From positions 1-64,000 of the forward strand of contig CABYHW010000003.1 of the NCBI GenBank assembly GCA_902518705.1: DNA of 64,000 nucleotides. The letters run 5' to 3'. Each line of letters starts with the position of its first letter. Positions within the stretch are counted from its first letter, which is position 1. The translations under genes and the position numbers were made by a program. Source of the DNA: an uncultured Alphaproteobacteria bacterium. GTDB lineage: Bacteria > Pseudomonadota > Alphaproteobacteria > HIMB59 > GCA-002718135. Below are positions 2,312 through 40,718 of this stretch, one piece after another. The notes beneath the pieces are model-generated. The model was not told where the DNA came from and made no database searches. It saw only the letters and a program-made list of their open reading frames with translations.

Positions 2312-3524
2312 TATATTCTGATATTAAATCTGATTTATTTTTTTCATATTTTGTATTTTGGATTAAACTTAAAAAAATAAGTTCTCGTTGAGCAAAACTA
2401 CCTCCAAGGTATTTAAATTGTGATTTAATTATATTTTCATTTAATAATTCATTTGTTTTCATACTGTGAATAATTGGCTTTAAGTAATTAATATAATTTT
2501 CTTTAAAAGAATTTTCTAAATAATTTTCTTCCATTCTTTCTTCAAGTTGCTGAAAATAATCTTGGTCATTATAGTATAAGTAATAAAAAATAAGATGATA
2601 ATCAATGAATGGAAGTATGTGTTGATTTTTAAAATATTCAGCATAATCTTTTAACTTATCCATTTTTTCTTTAACATCCACTCCTTTGTAATGAAGTCTT
2701 AATAAAAAAGAACAGGCATTACAAAAATCTAAATAAAAAATTTCTGAAGAAGAGAAATAATTATCAAATAGTTTTAAACTTTTCTCATATTCTTGATTAT
2801 AGAATAATATTAATGATTGGTGCCACCATATATGTCTTTTTATTGGTCCATAAATTGACCAATTAATTTTATTAAAATTATCATTGTTTTTAATTGAGTC
2901 GTTATTCTCATTATCGTGTACATGCAAAAGTGCATGCCAACTCCACAAATCATTAGATGATTGTTTTAGTGAATTTAAGGCTAAAAGCTTAGCTTTATCA
3001 ATTATATTATTTTCTTCAAAAGCATAGCTAGTCATTCCTAATAGTAAATTATAATGCTGATCATTTTCAGACCACTTACTTAGTATTTCTTCATGTTTAT
3101 TTAAAAATTTACTATTAATACCCAAGAAAATATTATTAAAATGAAATAATCTGATTGCAAAAATATCTTTGGGATTATCTTTGATAATTAATTCCAATTT
3201 ATTTAATAAATTTTTTAAATCATTTTTAATCCAGAGATTTACTATCTCTAAATAATGATGAAAATAATCATTTACTTCTTCAATAGAAATTGATTTTAAT
3301 GTTTCTCTAGCTAATGAAATTTTTTTTACATCTCTAGAAAAAAGCAATAAAACTATTTTTAATAATTTTGGAGCATTAAATTCTGGTTTTTTTTTTATTA
3401 ATTTGTTAGTTTTATAAAAAGCATCTTTCTTAAAATAAATATATGAATCGATACATTCTTTGAAACTATTTATTTCATCATCTTTATTACTATCTATCCA
3501 TTTATAAAAATAATTATTTTGCAT
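2277..3524 (-). CDS. TPR-repeat protein, TTC38-like
   Basis: 415 aa; LLLGMTSYAFEENNIIDKAKLLALNSLKQSSNDLWSWHALLHV and IWWHQSLILFYNQEYEKSLKLFD are TPR/TTC38-like. Confidence 0.6.
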   Translation of the reverse strand: MQNNYFYKWIDSNKDDEINSFKECIDSYIYFKKDAFYKTNKLIKKKPEFNAPKLLKIVLLLFSRDVKKISLARETLKSISIEEVNDYFHHYLEIVNLWIKNDLKNLLNKLELIIKDNPKDIFAIRLFHFNNIFLGINSKFLNKHEEILSKWSENDQHYNLLLGMTSYAFEENNIIDKAKLLALNSLKQSSNDLWSWHALLHVHDNENNDSIKNNDNFNKINWSIYGPIKRHIWWHQSLILFYNQEYEKSLKLFDNYFSSSEIFYLDFCNACSFLLRLHYKGVDVKEKMDKLKDYAEYFKNQHILPFIDYHLIFYYLYYNDQDYFQQLEERMEENYLENSFKENYINYLKPIIHSMKTNELLNENIIKSQFKYLGGSFAQRELIFLSLIQNTKYEKNKSDLISEYNDYKSVSKLYV

Positions 3525-35606: not shown

Positions 35607-35696
35607 GGAGAGATGGCTGAGCGGTTGAAAGCACTGGTCTTGAAAACCAGCAACGGGGCAACTCGTTCGTGAGTTCGAATCTCACTCTCTCCGCCA
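35607..35696 (+). tRNA. tRNA-Ser(UGA), CCA encoded
   Basis: GGAGAGA/TCTCTCC acceptor, CTGGT-CTTGAAA-ACCAG anticodon arm (anticodon TGA), long variable arm, GTTCGAAT T-loop, CCA. Confidence 0.96.
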
Positions 35697-35698
35697 TT
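35622..35698 (+). repeat. Left att-like direct repeat (3' part of tRNA-Ser)
   Basis: 77 bp repeated at 40642-40718 with 2 mismatches. Confidence 0.93.
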
Positions 35699-35749
35699 TT
35701 CAAGCATAATTTTAATAACTTTAAATAAATTTTGTGGTAAGATTTATTT

Positions 35750-36004
35750 ATGGTCAAGATTTTGAAATTTCCTAATAGAAATTCACCTGCCTCTAAAGAA
35801 AGAATGGAAGAACTACTAATAGCTAATGAAGAATTTAATAAAAAAGAAGATGAATTTGATAAAGCTCTATTTGATTTATTTAAAAAATATAAAAAAATAA
35901 GTAAGTATTTAAAATCAACGAAAAAAGAAAATAATGAACTTTTAAGAGGTTTAAGAAATAGTTTTAAATCTAAATTAGAGGATATAAAAAAGATATTAGA
36001 GTAA
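35750..36004 (+). CDS. Island hypothetical protein, coiled-coil-rich (84 aa)
   Basis: Charged helical sequence NEEFNKKEDEFDKALFDLFKKYKKISKYLKSTKKEN; overlaps next ORF start by ATGA-like junction. Confidence 0.6.
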   Translation: MVKILKFPNRNSPASKERMEELLIANEEFNKKEDEFDKALFDLFKKYKKISKYLKSTKKENNELLRGLRNSFKSKLEDIKKILE

Positions 36005-36585
36005 TGAAAAATTTTTTTAATCCTAACTCTATTGAATCCAAAAGTTTACAAAAAATTTTAAAAAGCAAGAAGAGTAAAATTTTAAAATATAGATATGAAG
36101 GTGAAACAAAAAATAAAATTCCTCATACACCAGAAAGTTTTGGAACTAAATTTTTTGAAGAACAAGATAGAAACGATTATACTGAAGCAGGCTTTCCATA
36201 TGATTTAGAAATGTTGCAAAATTATTTTACTAATACTTATGCTCAAGAATCTTTTTATTTTATGGGTCAAAGGTATGTTGAAGAGGCAAGATATATTAAT
36301 GGAGTTCCAGAAGGTGCTGTAAAGCTAACAATCGGCATTGAAGGCTTAGATTATAATCATTATTTATATTGTAATTTTAAAAATGGTTTACCTAATGGCT
36401 CAGCAATGCTCTATGAGTCTTATAAACTTTCACATGATCTTTATGAATTTGACAATGGATCAATAGTTAATGCTACTAGTTTTGATAATCTAACTGATCT
36501 TGAATTGAACAAAATAACTGATAATTGGAAGAAAAATAAAAATCTCTATAATCTTATGAAGGAAGATTTAGAGTTATATGAATGA
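36004..36585 (+). CDS. Island MORN-like protein, paralog of 37677-38291
   Basis: YRYEGETKNKIPHTPESFG, ARYINGVPEGAVKL, YLYCNFKNGLPNGSAMLYE. Confidence 0.65.
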   Translation: MKNFFNPNSIESKSLQKILKSKKSKILKYRYEGETKNKIPHTPESFGTKFFEEQDRNDYTEAGFPYDLEMLQNYFTNTYAQESFYFMGQRYVEEARYINGVPEGAVKLTIGIEGLDYNHYLYCNFKNGLPNGSAMLYESYKLSHDLYEFDNGSIVNATSFDNLTDLELNKITDNWKKNKNLYNLMKEDLELYE

Positions 36586-36613
36586 GATAAATTATTAATA
36601 ATTTTAATGTTTT

Positions 36614-37657
36614 TTGTTGTCATTATTAACACTGTTAGAAGATATTAGAATAAAACTATTTATGTATCAATTAATTAAAAGTATTGAACTTGAGCCAAGA
36701 AATAACAACGAAGGATACATTTATTTTTTTGATGATTCTTTAAAGACAGATAATATTGATTTTTTAAAGACATTTAAAAAAGGGACAGATAATAAAATTT
36801 TAAGATTTAATAGAAACTTTCAGATATTTAAAAGTTTTGGTATTGTAAGAAAAAAAGGAGTTAAATTTTTTTCAATTTCCAATAATAAAAAAGAAGTAAC
36901 AGATTTGATTATTTCAACTACTAGTTCAAAAATATCTTACAAACAAAAAATTGATATTGATGAAAGTATGAAGGAATTAATAAAATATAAAATTTTAAAT
37001 TATAAAAAATCAAAAAATGAAACATTGAATTTTATGAATGTGTTTAGGACAGAAAATATTAATGAAAAATGTAATATTTTAGACTTGATGAAAGTTAAAA
37101 CATTTTCATTAAAAATGATTGGAATTAAAGATAGAGAAGTTTCTGATAAAAATTTTTTGTTATTGGCAGAAAAGATAGGTAATAAAAATATCATAGCTAA
37201 ATTTCTTGATTCTTTAATCAGATTTGAATTTGGTGTGGCTGAAATATCACTTCAAGAAGGTAATATAGATAAGTTTTTAAATCATTGTCAATTTACGCAA
37301 GAACTAGAGTCAACAGAGTTTTACAAAGATAAAAAAATAAAATCTAATTGTAATATAAATATTAAATCGGGAAATTTGTGCATTCAGACTCTTGGTGAAA
37401 CATTTGAAATAAATATGAAACCAGGAAAATATAAAATGTATGAAATTTTTGATGAGGGTTTTAAAAATAACAAAGAAAAACAATATAAAAGAGTTAAGGA
37501 AGATGAAGAGTATGAAAAATTTAAAAAAAAATATCCTAATATGGAAATGGATGATTATGAATTAGCTATGGCATACAAGGATGGTTATGACCCATGGACC
37601 CCTGCTTTTATCCCTGAAACACCGAGCAATCATTTTCTTCTTTTATCACCCAAATAA
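36614..37657 (+). CDS. Island hypothetical protein (347 aa; start uncertain)
   Basis: Long ORF in operon orientation; no family recognised. Confidence 0.6.
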   Translation: MLSLLTLLEDIRIKLFMYQLIKSIELEPRNNNEGYIYFFDDSLKTDNIDFLKTFKKGTDNKILRFNRNFQIFKSFGIVRKKGVKFFSISNNKKEVTDLIISTTSSKISYKQKIDIDESMKELIKYKILNYKKSKNETLNFMNVFRTENINEKCNILDLMKVKTFSLKMIGIKDREVSDKNFLLLAEKIGNKNIIAKFLDSLIRFEFGVAEISLQEGNIDKFLNHCQFTQELESTEFYKDKKIKSNCNINIKSGNLCIQTLGETFEINMKPGKYKMYEIFDEGFKNNKEKQYKRVKEDEEYEKFKKKYPNMEMDDYELAMAYKDGYDPWTPAFIPETPSNHFLLLSPK

Positions 37658-37676
37658 TTAAATATGGTATCTGAGA

Positions 37677-38291
37677 ATGTTTAAAGATGACGAAAAAATT
37701 GTAATTAAGAGAATTCTTGATGACAAAGATAAGCAGTTTTTAGATTTTACATATACTGGCGATACTAAGAAAGACAACAAAACTCCACACGGTAGAGGTA
37801 ACAAAAAATTTGACTTTGAATATAAGTCTGGAATTTATTACGATTTAGAGAACATCAATTGTAGCAGACATATGGATACAAAAATATATTTTTTAAATTT
37901 AGGTTTACGAGAATATGAAAGTGCAGAATATAAAAATGGTGTAAGAAATGGAACGGCTATGATGCATATGATGGAGTATAGATCGGGTGAAGTAAGAAAT
38001 ACTTTTTATTGTTCATTTAAAAACGGTATTCCCCATGGTTACGCTCTACATCAAGGAATTTTTGATGATAATTTTAGAGAACATCTAGTTTTATATTTTG
38101 AAAAAGGAAAAATATTACACCATTTCTGGAATACAGATAAATCACGAACTAAACATTTAAAAAGATTAGAAAAAAATGATGATGGACATATCTACAGTAT
38201 TGTATCAGGACAGTTAGACGTATTTTTTACAGATGAAAGTTATATATCTCCTCAAGATAGATCGTTCACTCATAAGGATTTTAAGTTATAA
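37677..38291 (+). CDS. Island MORN-like protein, paralog of 36004-36585
   Basis: FTYTGDTKKDNKTPHGRGNKKF, AEYKNGVRNGTAMM, FYCSFKNGIPHGYALHQG. Confidence 0.68.
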   Translation: MFKDDEKIVIKRILDDKDKQFLDFTYTGDTKKDNKTPHGRGNKKFDFEYKSGIYYDLENINCSRHMDTKIYFLNLGLREYESAEYKNGVRNGTAMMHMMEYRSGEVRNTFYCSFKNGIPHGYALHQGIFDDNFREHLVLYFEKGKILHHFWNTDKSRTKHLKRLEKNDDGHIYSIVSGQLDVFFTDESYISPQDRSFTHKDFKL

Positions 38292-38303
38292 TTAAGTTAA
38301 TTT

Positions 38304-38819
38304 ATGAATATTAAAAAAATTTTAGATGAAGAGGAAGATAAACAGAAATCAATAGAGTTAGATAAAATCAAAAAAGAAGAGGAAAGAAAATCTGAGTTAG
38401 AAAAAAACAAAAAATTAATGCAAAAAGGTATTGAGGAAATATTTGATACCGTAAAGTTAAAAATCAATAATTATATTTTACAACTTAAAGATTATCCTAT
38501 TGAGTTTAACAGTCCGTCAAAAATAAATGATGACACTTTTATTTCTTGGATAATTCTTATTGTTGATAAAAAAGAAGCTGAAGACACTCAAGAGCTAGAA
38601 GTTGAATTCTATATAAGTAATTATGATAAACCAAAATATAAATTAATAACAAATAATCAAAATATTAATTTTTCACAGGATTTGTATTTACTTTCGGGAA
38701 AAATTAAAAAATTAGAAAATAAAGAATTCAATGATCTGGATAGTCTGTTTGAAAATTTTATTCAAGTTTCAAAAGAGATATTGGTTAAATTAAAAAATCA
38801 TGAAGTTGATAAACTTTAG
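38304..38819 (+). CDS. Island hypothetical protein (171 aa), charged N-terminal helix
   Basis: DEEEDKQKSIELDKIKKEEERKSELEKNKKL then mixed alpha/beta-like region. Confidence 0.6.
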   Translation: MNIKKILDEEEDKQKSIELDKIKKEEERKSELEKNKKLMQKGIEEIFDTVKLKINNYILQLKDYPIEFNSPSKINDDTFISWIILIVDKKEAEDTQELEVEFYISNYDKPKYKLITNNQNINFSQDLYLLSGKIKKLENKEFNDLDSLFENFIQVSKEILVKLKNHEVDKL

Positions 38820-38859
38820 GATCACTTTTGCTCCATTCTTTATTTACAAAAGTATTCAT

Positions 38860-40059
38860 TTATTCAAAAAAACTTAGACTTTCTTTATCAGTATCAAATA
38901 ATTCAGGACACACATTTCTTATTTTTTCTACTCTCCTCTTTTGAATAAGTATTGTTAATGGGAAGAGTGGTAAAACTTCCTCAATTTTTTTATATTTTTG
39001 TCTATTCTTATTAAATTCTTCCTCTAATTTTGCTGGTTCTGCTTTTTGCCTTCTTATATTTTCTAAATGGTCCATAATGTTCATAGATTTTGTAGTAGTT
39101 TTTTCTGCATTTATAAATTCATTTATATCTTTGAAGTAAATTTCCATGAGGACATGAGTTTCATTAATAGTATCTTGAAATATTCTATATCTTAGTTCAC
39201 TAATAAACCGTGAATATGCTCCTAAATTATTGTTATGAATATCTTCAATCTTTTTTTGAAGCTTTTTTCCTTCACTGACAAAATTCAAAAATTCTTTTTG
39301 TTTTTTATCATAAATCCAATCCCTAATTTGGTTAAAATTTGGAGCAAAATACAGTTCTTGTAAATCTGAATGAAATTCAGTCAATTCGTGAATTTGCGCT
39401 TCAATATATTCTTTTTTAATAATTTTTTTAAAAAGAGACGGGTGAATACTTAAGTCTGATTTAATTTTAAATGGAAGGTTTTTGATATTAATGTGAGATA
39501 TATCTTTTGAAGAAAAATTTAAAATTTGGAGATTACCCATATTTAAAATATTGCTGCTAGAAGTATCTTTGTTAAAAACTATTTGATCACTCTCTAGTTT
39601 TATTTCATATGTAGTATAATTATTGTTTTTGTGAGATAAATCAGCTGCATCAACATCATGATATTCCAAACCTAAGCTTTTTTTTATATTTTTTCTTTCT
39701 TCAATTTCTTTATCAGTTCTATTAACTAACAATGGATCAAGATGATAAAAAAATATTCCAATAGATGAAACTGTTTCTAGATGATCTTCTTTAAATTTTT
39801 GAATATATTTTAATTTGTTATAGCACTCTTCAAGAAATTCTCTGTATTCATCTATGTTTAGTTTGCTTTCTATTTTTATTTTACCTTCAGCTTCTAGTAA
39901 TTTTTTATTTATAAGTTCTTCATTTGATAGATTATAAACTAAATCACTAGTCTTAACCAATAAGTCGTCATTTTTTTGATTACCATTTCCATCCAAATGT
40001 TTACCAATATCTTTTTTTAAAAGTGTCAAAATGCTACTATCAATAGTTATCTCTTTCAT
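38860..40059 (-). CDS. Island hypothetical protein (399 aa)
   Basis: Long ORF, no family recognised; opposite strand to the other island operon. Confidence 0.6.
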   Translation of the reverse strand: MKEITIDSSILTLLKKDIGKHLDGNGNQKNDDLLVKTSDLVYNLSNEELINKKLLEAEGKIKIESKLNIDEYREFLEECYNKLKYIQKFKEDHLETVSSIGIFFYHLDPLLVNRTDKEIEERKNIKKSLGLEYHDVDAADLSHKNNNYTTYEIKLESDQIVFNKDTSSSNILNMGNLQILNFSSKDISHINIKNLPFKIKSDLSIHPSLFKKIIKKEYIEAQIHELTEFHSDLQELYFAPNFNQIRDWIYDKKQKEFLNFVSEGKKLQKKIEDIHNNNLGAYSRFISELRYRIFQDTINETHVLMEIYFKDINEFINAEKTTTKSMNIMDHLENIRRQKAEPAKLEEEFNKNRQKYKKIEEVLPLFPLTILIQKRRVEKIRNVCPELFDTDKESLSFFE

Positions 40060-40083
40060 CTTTTTAATTTCAAATTTGTTTTA

Positions 40084-40557
40084 TCATTGGATTTTGTTAC
40101 AGTGTCCGTAAACATAAAATATGTTTCTATACAAATTATCACTAAATTTTTCTCTAATTTGTAATTCAAAATAATTATCTAAAACTAAATTAATTTCGTA
40201 ATTATCTAAATAGCCAAAATAACTCATGGATCCTTTTTTGAAATCTGTTATCTCAATATTTTGTTCATACTTATCTTTTATAGTAATTTTATTATTATCT
40301 ACTTTTATAGTAGAAAAGAGCAAACCTTTTTCAGGTATTACATCATCATTAAAAGTACAAGTTGGAACAATTTTTCCATCTATATATTCAAGTAGAGATG
40401 CCTGGCAATATTTTTTAGCAATACAATTATAAATTTCTTCCTTTGCAAATAATGATTTGGTAGAGAAAAATAAAAAGATAACTAGAATTATTCGTACAGA
40501 TCTGTGTTTAAGGATTTTATTAATCTCCTTCATTTCTTCTTTTTTCAAATTCATCAA
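40084..40557 (-). CDS. Island hypothetical exported protein (157 aa)
   Basis: Hydrophobic segment SVRIILVIFLFFSTKSLFA followed by Cys-containing mature region. Confidence 0.6.
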   Translation of the reverse strand: MMNLKKEEMKEINKILKHRSVRIILVIFLFFSTKSLFAKEEIYNCIAKKYCQASLLEYIDGKIVPTCTFNDDVIPEKGLLFSTIKVDNNKITIKDKYEQNIEITDFKKGSMSYFGYLDNYEINLVLDNYFELQIREKFSDNLYRNIFYVYGHCNKIQ

Positions 40558-40585
40558 TTAAAGATTAATATAATTTATACCAAAT

Positions 40586-40607
40586 ATCTACACGACATCT
40601 ACACGAC
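40586..40607. repeat. Two perfect tandem copies of an 11-mer near right att-like repeat
   Basis: ATCTACACGAC-ATCTACACGAC. Confidence 0.85.
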
Positions 40608-40608
40608 A

Positions 40609-40623
40609 TGCCATTTTATGGCA
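40609..40623. repeat. Short inverted repeat next to right att-like repeat
   Basis: TGCCAT-TTT-ATGGCA. Confidence 0.6.
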
Positions 40624-40641
40624 GAAATAAAGGACAAAAAA

Positions 40642-40718
40642 CGGTTGAAAGCACCGGTCTTGAAAACCGGCAACGGGGCAACTCGTTCGTGAGTTCGAAT
40701 CTCACTCTCTCCGCCATT
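40642..40718 (+). repeat. Right att-like direct repeat (truncated tRNA-Ser copy)
   Basis: 75/77 identical to 35622-35698; lacks the 5' acceptor strand and D-arm start. Confidence 0.93.

Follow-up and report, generated by a model that had tools for sequence, protein, structure and literature searches.

An allelic anticodon-stem base pair suggests partial rewriting of a tRNA-Ser(UGA) gene by an integrase-less element in a HIMB59 alphaproteobacterium

Results

Organization of the tRNA-Ser(UGA) locus

The window, the whole stretch of 64,000 nucleotides analyzed here, lies on contig 3 of a 1.16-Mb draft genome (G000) that is 71% complete and appears to belong to the HIMB59/AEGEAN-169 order. It contains a tRNA-Ser(UGA) gene preceded by a lytic transglycosylase (SLT) gene and followed by an element with seven open reading frames (ORFs), a second, partial tRNA-Ser copy, a sugar dehydrogenase gene and a further ORF read as mfd. 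The features of the locus are as follows.

35607..35696, + strand: intact tRNA-Ser(UGA), read as a hybrid (ARAGORN; C-G allele of relatives; flank comparison)
35622..35634, + strand: putative crossover interval CGGTTGAAAGCAC in the D-arm, bounded by the left edge of identity and the first allelic difference
35635..35635, + strand: T28; the distal copy and the host allele have C here
35649..35649, + strand: A42, pairing with T28; the distal copy and the host allele have G here
35697..40641, no strand: inserted element without an integrase gene, absent from the same site in G027, G014, G007 and G023
35750..36004, + strand: 84-aa coiled-coil-like ORF, common to the elements of G124, G076 and G118
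36004..36585, + strand: 193-aa ORF, no assigned function
36614..37657, + strand: 347-aa ORF, with a close relative among the genes of a variable cluster in G077
37677..38291, + strand: 204-aa ORF, weakly MORN-like, close relative in G077
38304..38819, + strand: 171-aa ORF, no assigned function
38860..40059, - strand: 399-aa ORF, with a close relative among the genes of a variable cluster in G089
40084..40557, - strand: 157-aa ORF, no assigned function
40586..40607, + strand: two 11-bp direct repeats ATCTACACGAC, candidate integrase arm sites, also in the G067 element
40609..40623, no strand: 15-bp palindrome TGCCATTTTATGGCA, kept in the G067 element
40642..40718, + strand: distal partial tRNA-Ser copy with C-G, the displaced host 3' segment; host sequence resumes at 40717

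The GC content of the element (24.3%) is like that of its flanks. Pfam, PHROGs and PADLOC searches with the seven ORFs returned nothing above noise, and no relatives of three of the element proteins turned up in viral contigs. Several cargo ORFs have close relatives in the variable clusters of G077 and G089, indicating that this cargo circulates within the genus. Variable clusters encoding secreted or MORN-like proteins were observed beside cobB (L163, L164, L165 and L166) and in L167 (G089); besides relatives of the cargo of the window element, these clusters carry an 84-89-aa coiled-coil-like protein.

The two tRNA-Ser copies differ by one base pair

Alignment of the proximal (35622-35698) and distal (40642-40718) copies over their 77 bp yields exactly two mismatches, T35635/C40655 and A35649/G40669. 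In the predicted fold these positions are partners in the anticodon stem (29 and 43 of the 90-nt gene, corresponding to tRNA positions 28 and 42), in agreement with the initial annotation, which had claimed that the copies differ at just two base-paired positions. The probability that two random substitutions in a 75-nt copy land on partners and preserve Watson-Crick pairing is 0.0019. ARAGORN called a tRNA-Ser(UGA) at 35607-35696 only, making the proximal copy the sole complete gene. G067 and G073, two further genomes of the genus, show the same pair of mismatches between their proximal and distal copies, so the difference is not a sequencing error of this assembly.

The C-G allele belongs to the host

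The direction of the exchange was established with element-free relatives whose flanks are ~96% identical and join base-for-base across the insertion point; these present a C-G tRNA-Ser between the same neighbors. The upstream 1200 bp of the window locus are 96.25% identical to the empty site of G027, and so are the downstream 1500 bp, counted from the first base after the distal CCA, at 96.67%, whereas the sequence following the proximal tRNA has no match at that site. The element is missing at the same site, with precise junctions, in G027, G014, G007 and G023. The same flank pattern was observed for G067 against its close relative G112 and for G073 against its close relative G110. The nearest relatives of G000, G067 and G073 are all C-G, as are the element-free genomes examined within 3% of G000.

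Since the distal copy stands in host context relative to G027, it corresponds to the displaced 3' segment of the host gene, and the T-A pair was borne by the element. Comparison of these sequences thus indicates that the intact chromosomal tRNA is a hybrid, made up of a host 5' part (at least 35607-35621) and an element-borne 3' part that starts at 35635 at the latest and carries T-A. The proposal that both versions derive from working tRNA genes, one of the host and one carried by the element, is supported. A hybrid gene had been raised as a possibility with its direction left open; the direction is now set, with the distal C-G copy as the host's. The paired difference had also been taken to date the element as foreign, but the pair provides no date, and on the present evidence the element is foreign only in the sense of coming from another lineage within the same genus-level gene pool.

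Distribution of the T-A allele and of the elements in the genus

A scan of 102 genomes of the genus retrieved regions with 71 intact tRNA-Ser genes and 69 SLT-adjacent loci. Among the intact genes, 62 were C-G, eight presented exactly the T-A change and one (G035) was divergent, with T-A at 28-42 plus a further changed pair, and was scored as not T-A. None of the 71 carried only one of the two changes, as a T-G or C-A intermediate would. At SLT-adjacent loci, T-A was found in five of the six with an element and in 3 of 63 without (Fisher p 2.9e-5, uncorrected for kinship); kinship-independent pairs favored the association 3 to 0, too few for a test. Element-free relatives are mostly C-G at positions 28-42, yet not uniformly so, with T-A in G125, G084 and G099. 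On the SLT gene tree the T-A allele is scattered, its eight rows needing seven changes, at least five of them forced by well-supported branches.

In G118 and G076, T-A is accompanied by a different variable arm and T-stem. The upstream flank of G118 is native, being 95.75% identical to that of G014, a genome in which the tRNA carries the other variable arm and T-stem; the G118 tRNA is therefore non-native over a large 3' portion that includes these two parts. A different organization was observed in G124 (L132 2603-6500), where the SLT-adjacent tRNA-Ser has T28 and breaks off past the anticodon arm, and a complete C-G tRNA-Ser, adjoining an element like that of the window, is located 2.4 kb downstream of the broken copy.

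Position of the crossover

Identity between the copies begins at 35622 and is first interrupted at 35635, which defines a 13-bp interval. Since a matched pair is preserved at either junction, the exchange would not have fallen between positions 28 and 42. Given that T28 and A42 were never separated, and that the direction is known, the crossover would map 5' of position 28, within CGGTTGAAAGCAC. The sequence comparison hence makes an exchange in these 13 bp of the D-arm likely, although later gene conversion between the copies could mimic the pattern. At this interval, the C-G allele of the host presents an inverted repeat around 7 bp (CGGT-TGAAAGC-ACCG), a symmetry that would suit a tyrosine recombinase. 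The sub-sites reported for Islander islands within tRNA genes are the anticodon loop, the T loop and the T/acceptor junction (PMC4383910). Unless later conversion blurred its position, the putative D-arm crossover would lie outside these three recognized sub-sites.

Element ends and candidate enzymes

Over 59 bp, the end of the element left of the distal copy is 95% identical to its counterpart in the G067 element, while the element interiors do not match; the end of the G124 element is a diverged version with other repeats. ATCTACACGAC is the only such repeat within the window element. Searches for integrase families found no match in the element, and the only PF00589 match in the genome is on contig 10. 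No integrase was detected in or near any of the tRNA-Ser elements seen, nor was a helper with a tRNA-Ser site and matching repeats among 20 other integrase loci, four of which lie in tRNA-Gly arrays. The combination of attP-like repeats and no integrase points to probable movement of the element in trans.

Most genomes of the genus encode, next to cobB, a 352-aa Xer/Cre-like tyrosine recombinase (L168 8749-9807; G000 contig 10, 16748-17803) that was not found in the sister family; it is possibly a dimer resolvase. The presence of the 84-aa cargo gene only a few kb away in four relatives made this recombinase a candidate resident enzyme, but no link was kept. The variable gene cluster beside cobB explains this proximity better, G000 has the recombinase at cobB without such cargo, and use of arm sites would not be expected of a Cre/Xer-like enzyme.

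Neither the end of the element nor the C-G copy had matches in viral contigs, and no free attP or donor was found. A T-A 35-mer matched a single viral contig (L035), whose tRNA-Ser has another T-stem and acceptor; this contig, from a viral collection, carries a complete T-A tRNA-Ser(UGA) at 3255-3344, a tmRNA, and ClpX-, IF3- and ferredoxin-like ORFs. Among the matches listed, phage records reached at most 83%. The T-A pair is common among the Pelagibacteraceae matches listed, the commonest listed form differing at three bases of the 75-bp segment, and a direct SAR11 donor was rejected on account of these three differences.

tRNA-Gly arrays in the same genus

Tandem arrays of small cassettes (0.56-3.3 kb) were observed after tRNA-Gly(GCC) genes of the genus (L075 12628-16885; L036, L037, L038, L062, L070, L111 and L115). 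Each cassette is closed by an identical 51-bp tRNA-Gly 3' piece preceded by 11-bp direct repeats, and most lack an integrase. In L297, L298, L303 and L309 the 51-bp repeats enclose or adjoin a tyrosine integrase gene; a single site may thus serve both an autonomous element and helper-dependent cassettes. The end cassettes of several arrays contain an inverted tRNA-Ser(UGA) copy (L036 8318-8371, on contig 1 of G000; L062, L075, L094, L111, L115 and L130), near full-length and accompanied by a sulfotransferase gene in some, and limited to the 5' half in others.

Discussion

The insertion at this locus is precise, the host state is C-G and the distal copy lies in host context; the same arrangement is present in G067 and G073, and G118 carries a larger non-native tRNA segment. 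We infer from this pattern an enzyme, its action in trans and a point of crossover, and we consider it probable that the integrase-less element entered the tRNA-Ser(UGA) gene by site-specific integration of the tyrosine-recombinase type, acting in trans on a T28-A42 attP, with exchange in the D-arm. The attP would have carried a tRNA 3' segment from a T28-A42 allele, and an enzyme of the tyrosine-recombinase type, supplied in trans, would have exchanged strands 5' of position 28, in the 13-bp segment CGGTTGAAAGCAC. The gene would thereby have been regenerated with host sequence up to the crossover and element sequence beyond it, the host C-G 3' segment being displaced to 40642-40718. Mobilization in trans is suggested by analogy with the tRNA-Gly arrays, some of which have an integrase.

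Several points stand against this model: no integrase, free attP or donor was found for the tRNA-Ser elements; the kinship-independent pairs are few; gene conversion after integration could resemble a D-arm crossover; the tRNA immediately to the left of the G124 element is C-G, although the broken copy has T28; and three element-free loci are also T-A. These three loci are most simply explained by later loss of the element or by ordinary homologous recombination. Loss would proceed through recombination between the 75-bp direct repeats, with exchange 3' of position 42; alternatively, the allele may have been acquired through ordinary homologous recombination or gene exchange.

The paired difference might also have arisen after integration, if the incoming segment was itself C-G and identical to that of the host, and the intact gene subsequently shifted from C-G to T-A through a wobble intermediate, leaving the distal copy unchanged. 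C-to-T and G-to-A changes are favored in a 26% GC genome, and T-A is viable in many Pelagibacteraceae among the matches listed. Such compensatory evolution would nonetheless demand separate events in G000, G067, G073, G118 and G076, each beside an element; no intermediate appears in the 71 genes, and the non-native variable arm and T-stem of G118 would be left unexplained, so that we regard it as improbable. A host that was itself T-A, entered by a C-G-bearing element through the T loop or the T/acceptor junction, would make the distal copy the element's. Both sites are recognized sub-sites and G125 is T-A without an element, but the nearest relatives of G000, G067 and G073 are C-G, the attP would need ~45 bp of functionless tRNA identity on the far side of the crossover, and the non-native part of G118 starts in or before the variable arm; this scenario appears very improbable.

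A T-A tRNA-Ser circle might instead have been inserted with no site-specific enzyme, through homologous recombination within the 5' half of the tRNA stretch common to both molecules. This would produce the same junctions without any integrase, and none was found. One 59-bp end with arm-like repeats is nevertheless common to elements whose interiors differ, and identity starts at the same, or almost the same, left edge in G000, G067 and G073, which leaves this route with an equally low probability. Least probable of all is a crossover in the anticodon loop with an attP contributing A42 only, followed by host repair of the C28-A42 mismatch to T28-A42. The anticodon loop is a recognized sub-site, and identity in the tRNA-Gly cassettes of these bacteria begins at the anticodon stem; the same repair would, however, be needed in G000, G067 and G073, no unrepaired case was seen, and identity in tRNA-Ser starts ~10 nt further 5' than an anticodon-loop site needs.

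Under the favored site-specific integration, the allele difference acts as a natural marker that parts host from element DNA inside the attachment site and maps the crossover from sequence alone, and, within a single genus, mobile elements would repeatedly have substituted a portion of an essential core gene. A D-arm placement, if correct, would extend the list of sub-sites for tRNA targeting and would caution against assuming vertical inheritance for tRNA genes at island hot spots. More tentatively, integrase-less marine cassettes may use an unlisted D-arm crossover that rewrites most of tRNA-Ser, with core-tRNA alleles turning over horizontally through integration and loss rather than by mutation. 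Were such rewriting true, the anticodon arm, variable arm and T-stem of the working tRNA-Ser would all be replaced.

In the literature on the HIMB59 order, islands are mentioned but none was found at this tRNA-Ser gene. As in Islander tRNA-gene islands (PMC4383910), the element is bounded on one side by a restored tRNA gene and on the other by a displaced 3' tRNA fragment with matching orientation, and it is precisely absent in relatives. Those islands have an integrase gene within the element; this one does not, and the Islander integrase filter would therefore reject it. Two further differences are the putative D-arm crossover, to which the linked T28 and A42 point but which conversion could also yield, and the different allele carried by the restored gene. 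As in helper-dependent elements, attP-like arm repeats are common to elements with different cargo. Small cargo at a tRNA gene of a streamlined aquatic bacterium, with tRNA 3'-end repeats, recalls the additive flexible genomic islands of the Methylophilaceae (PMC10872708), although the tRNA-Ser locus holds a single 5-kb unit and no array; the tRNA-Gly array of the same genus fits those islands better. Tycheposons are likewise cargo elements beside a tRNA gene in marine bacteria, but are described with a tyrosine recombinase (PMC10872708), absent here. In tRNA-dependent lysogeny (PMC10865867), a mobile element also alters which tRNA sequence serves the host, but there a separate phage tRNA takes over with no rebuilding at a junction, whereas here the gene itself is rebuilt. 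The element is thus a variant of the well-known tRNA-gene island, with an unusually clear record of the cut position.
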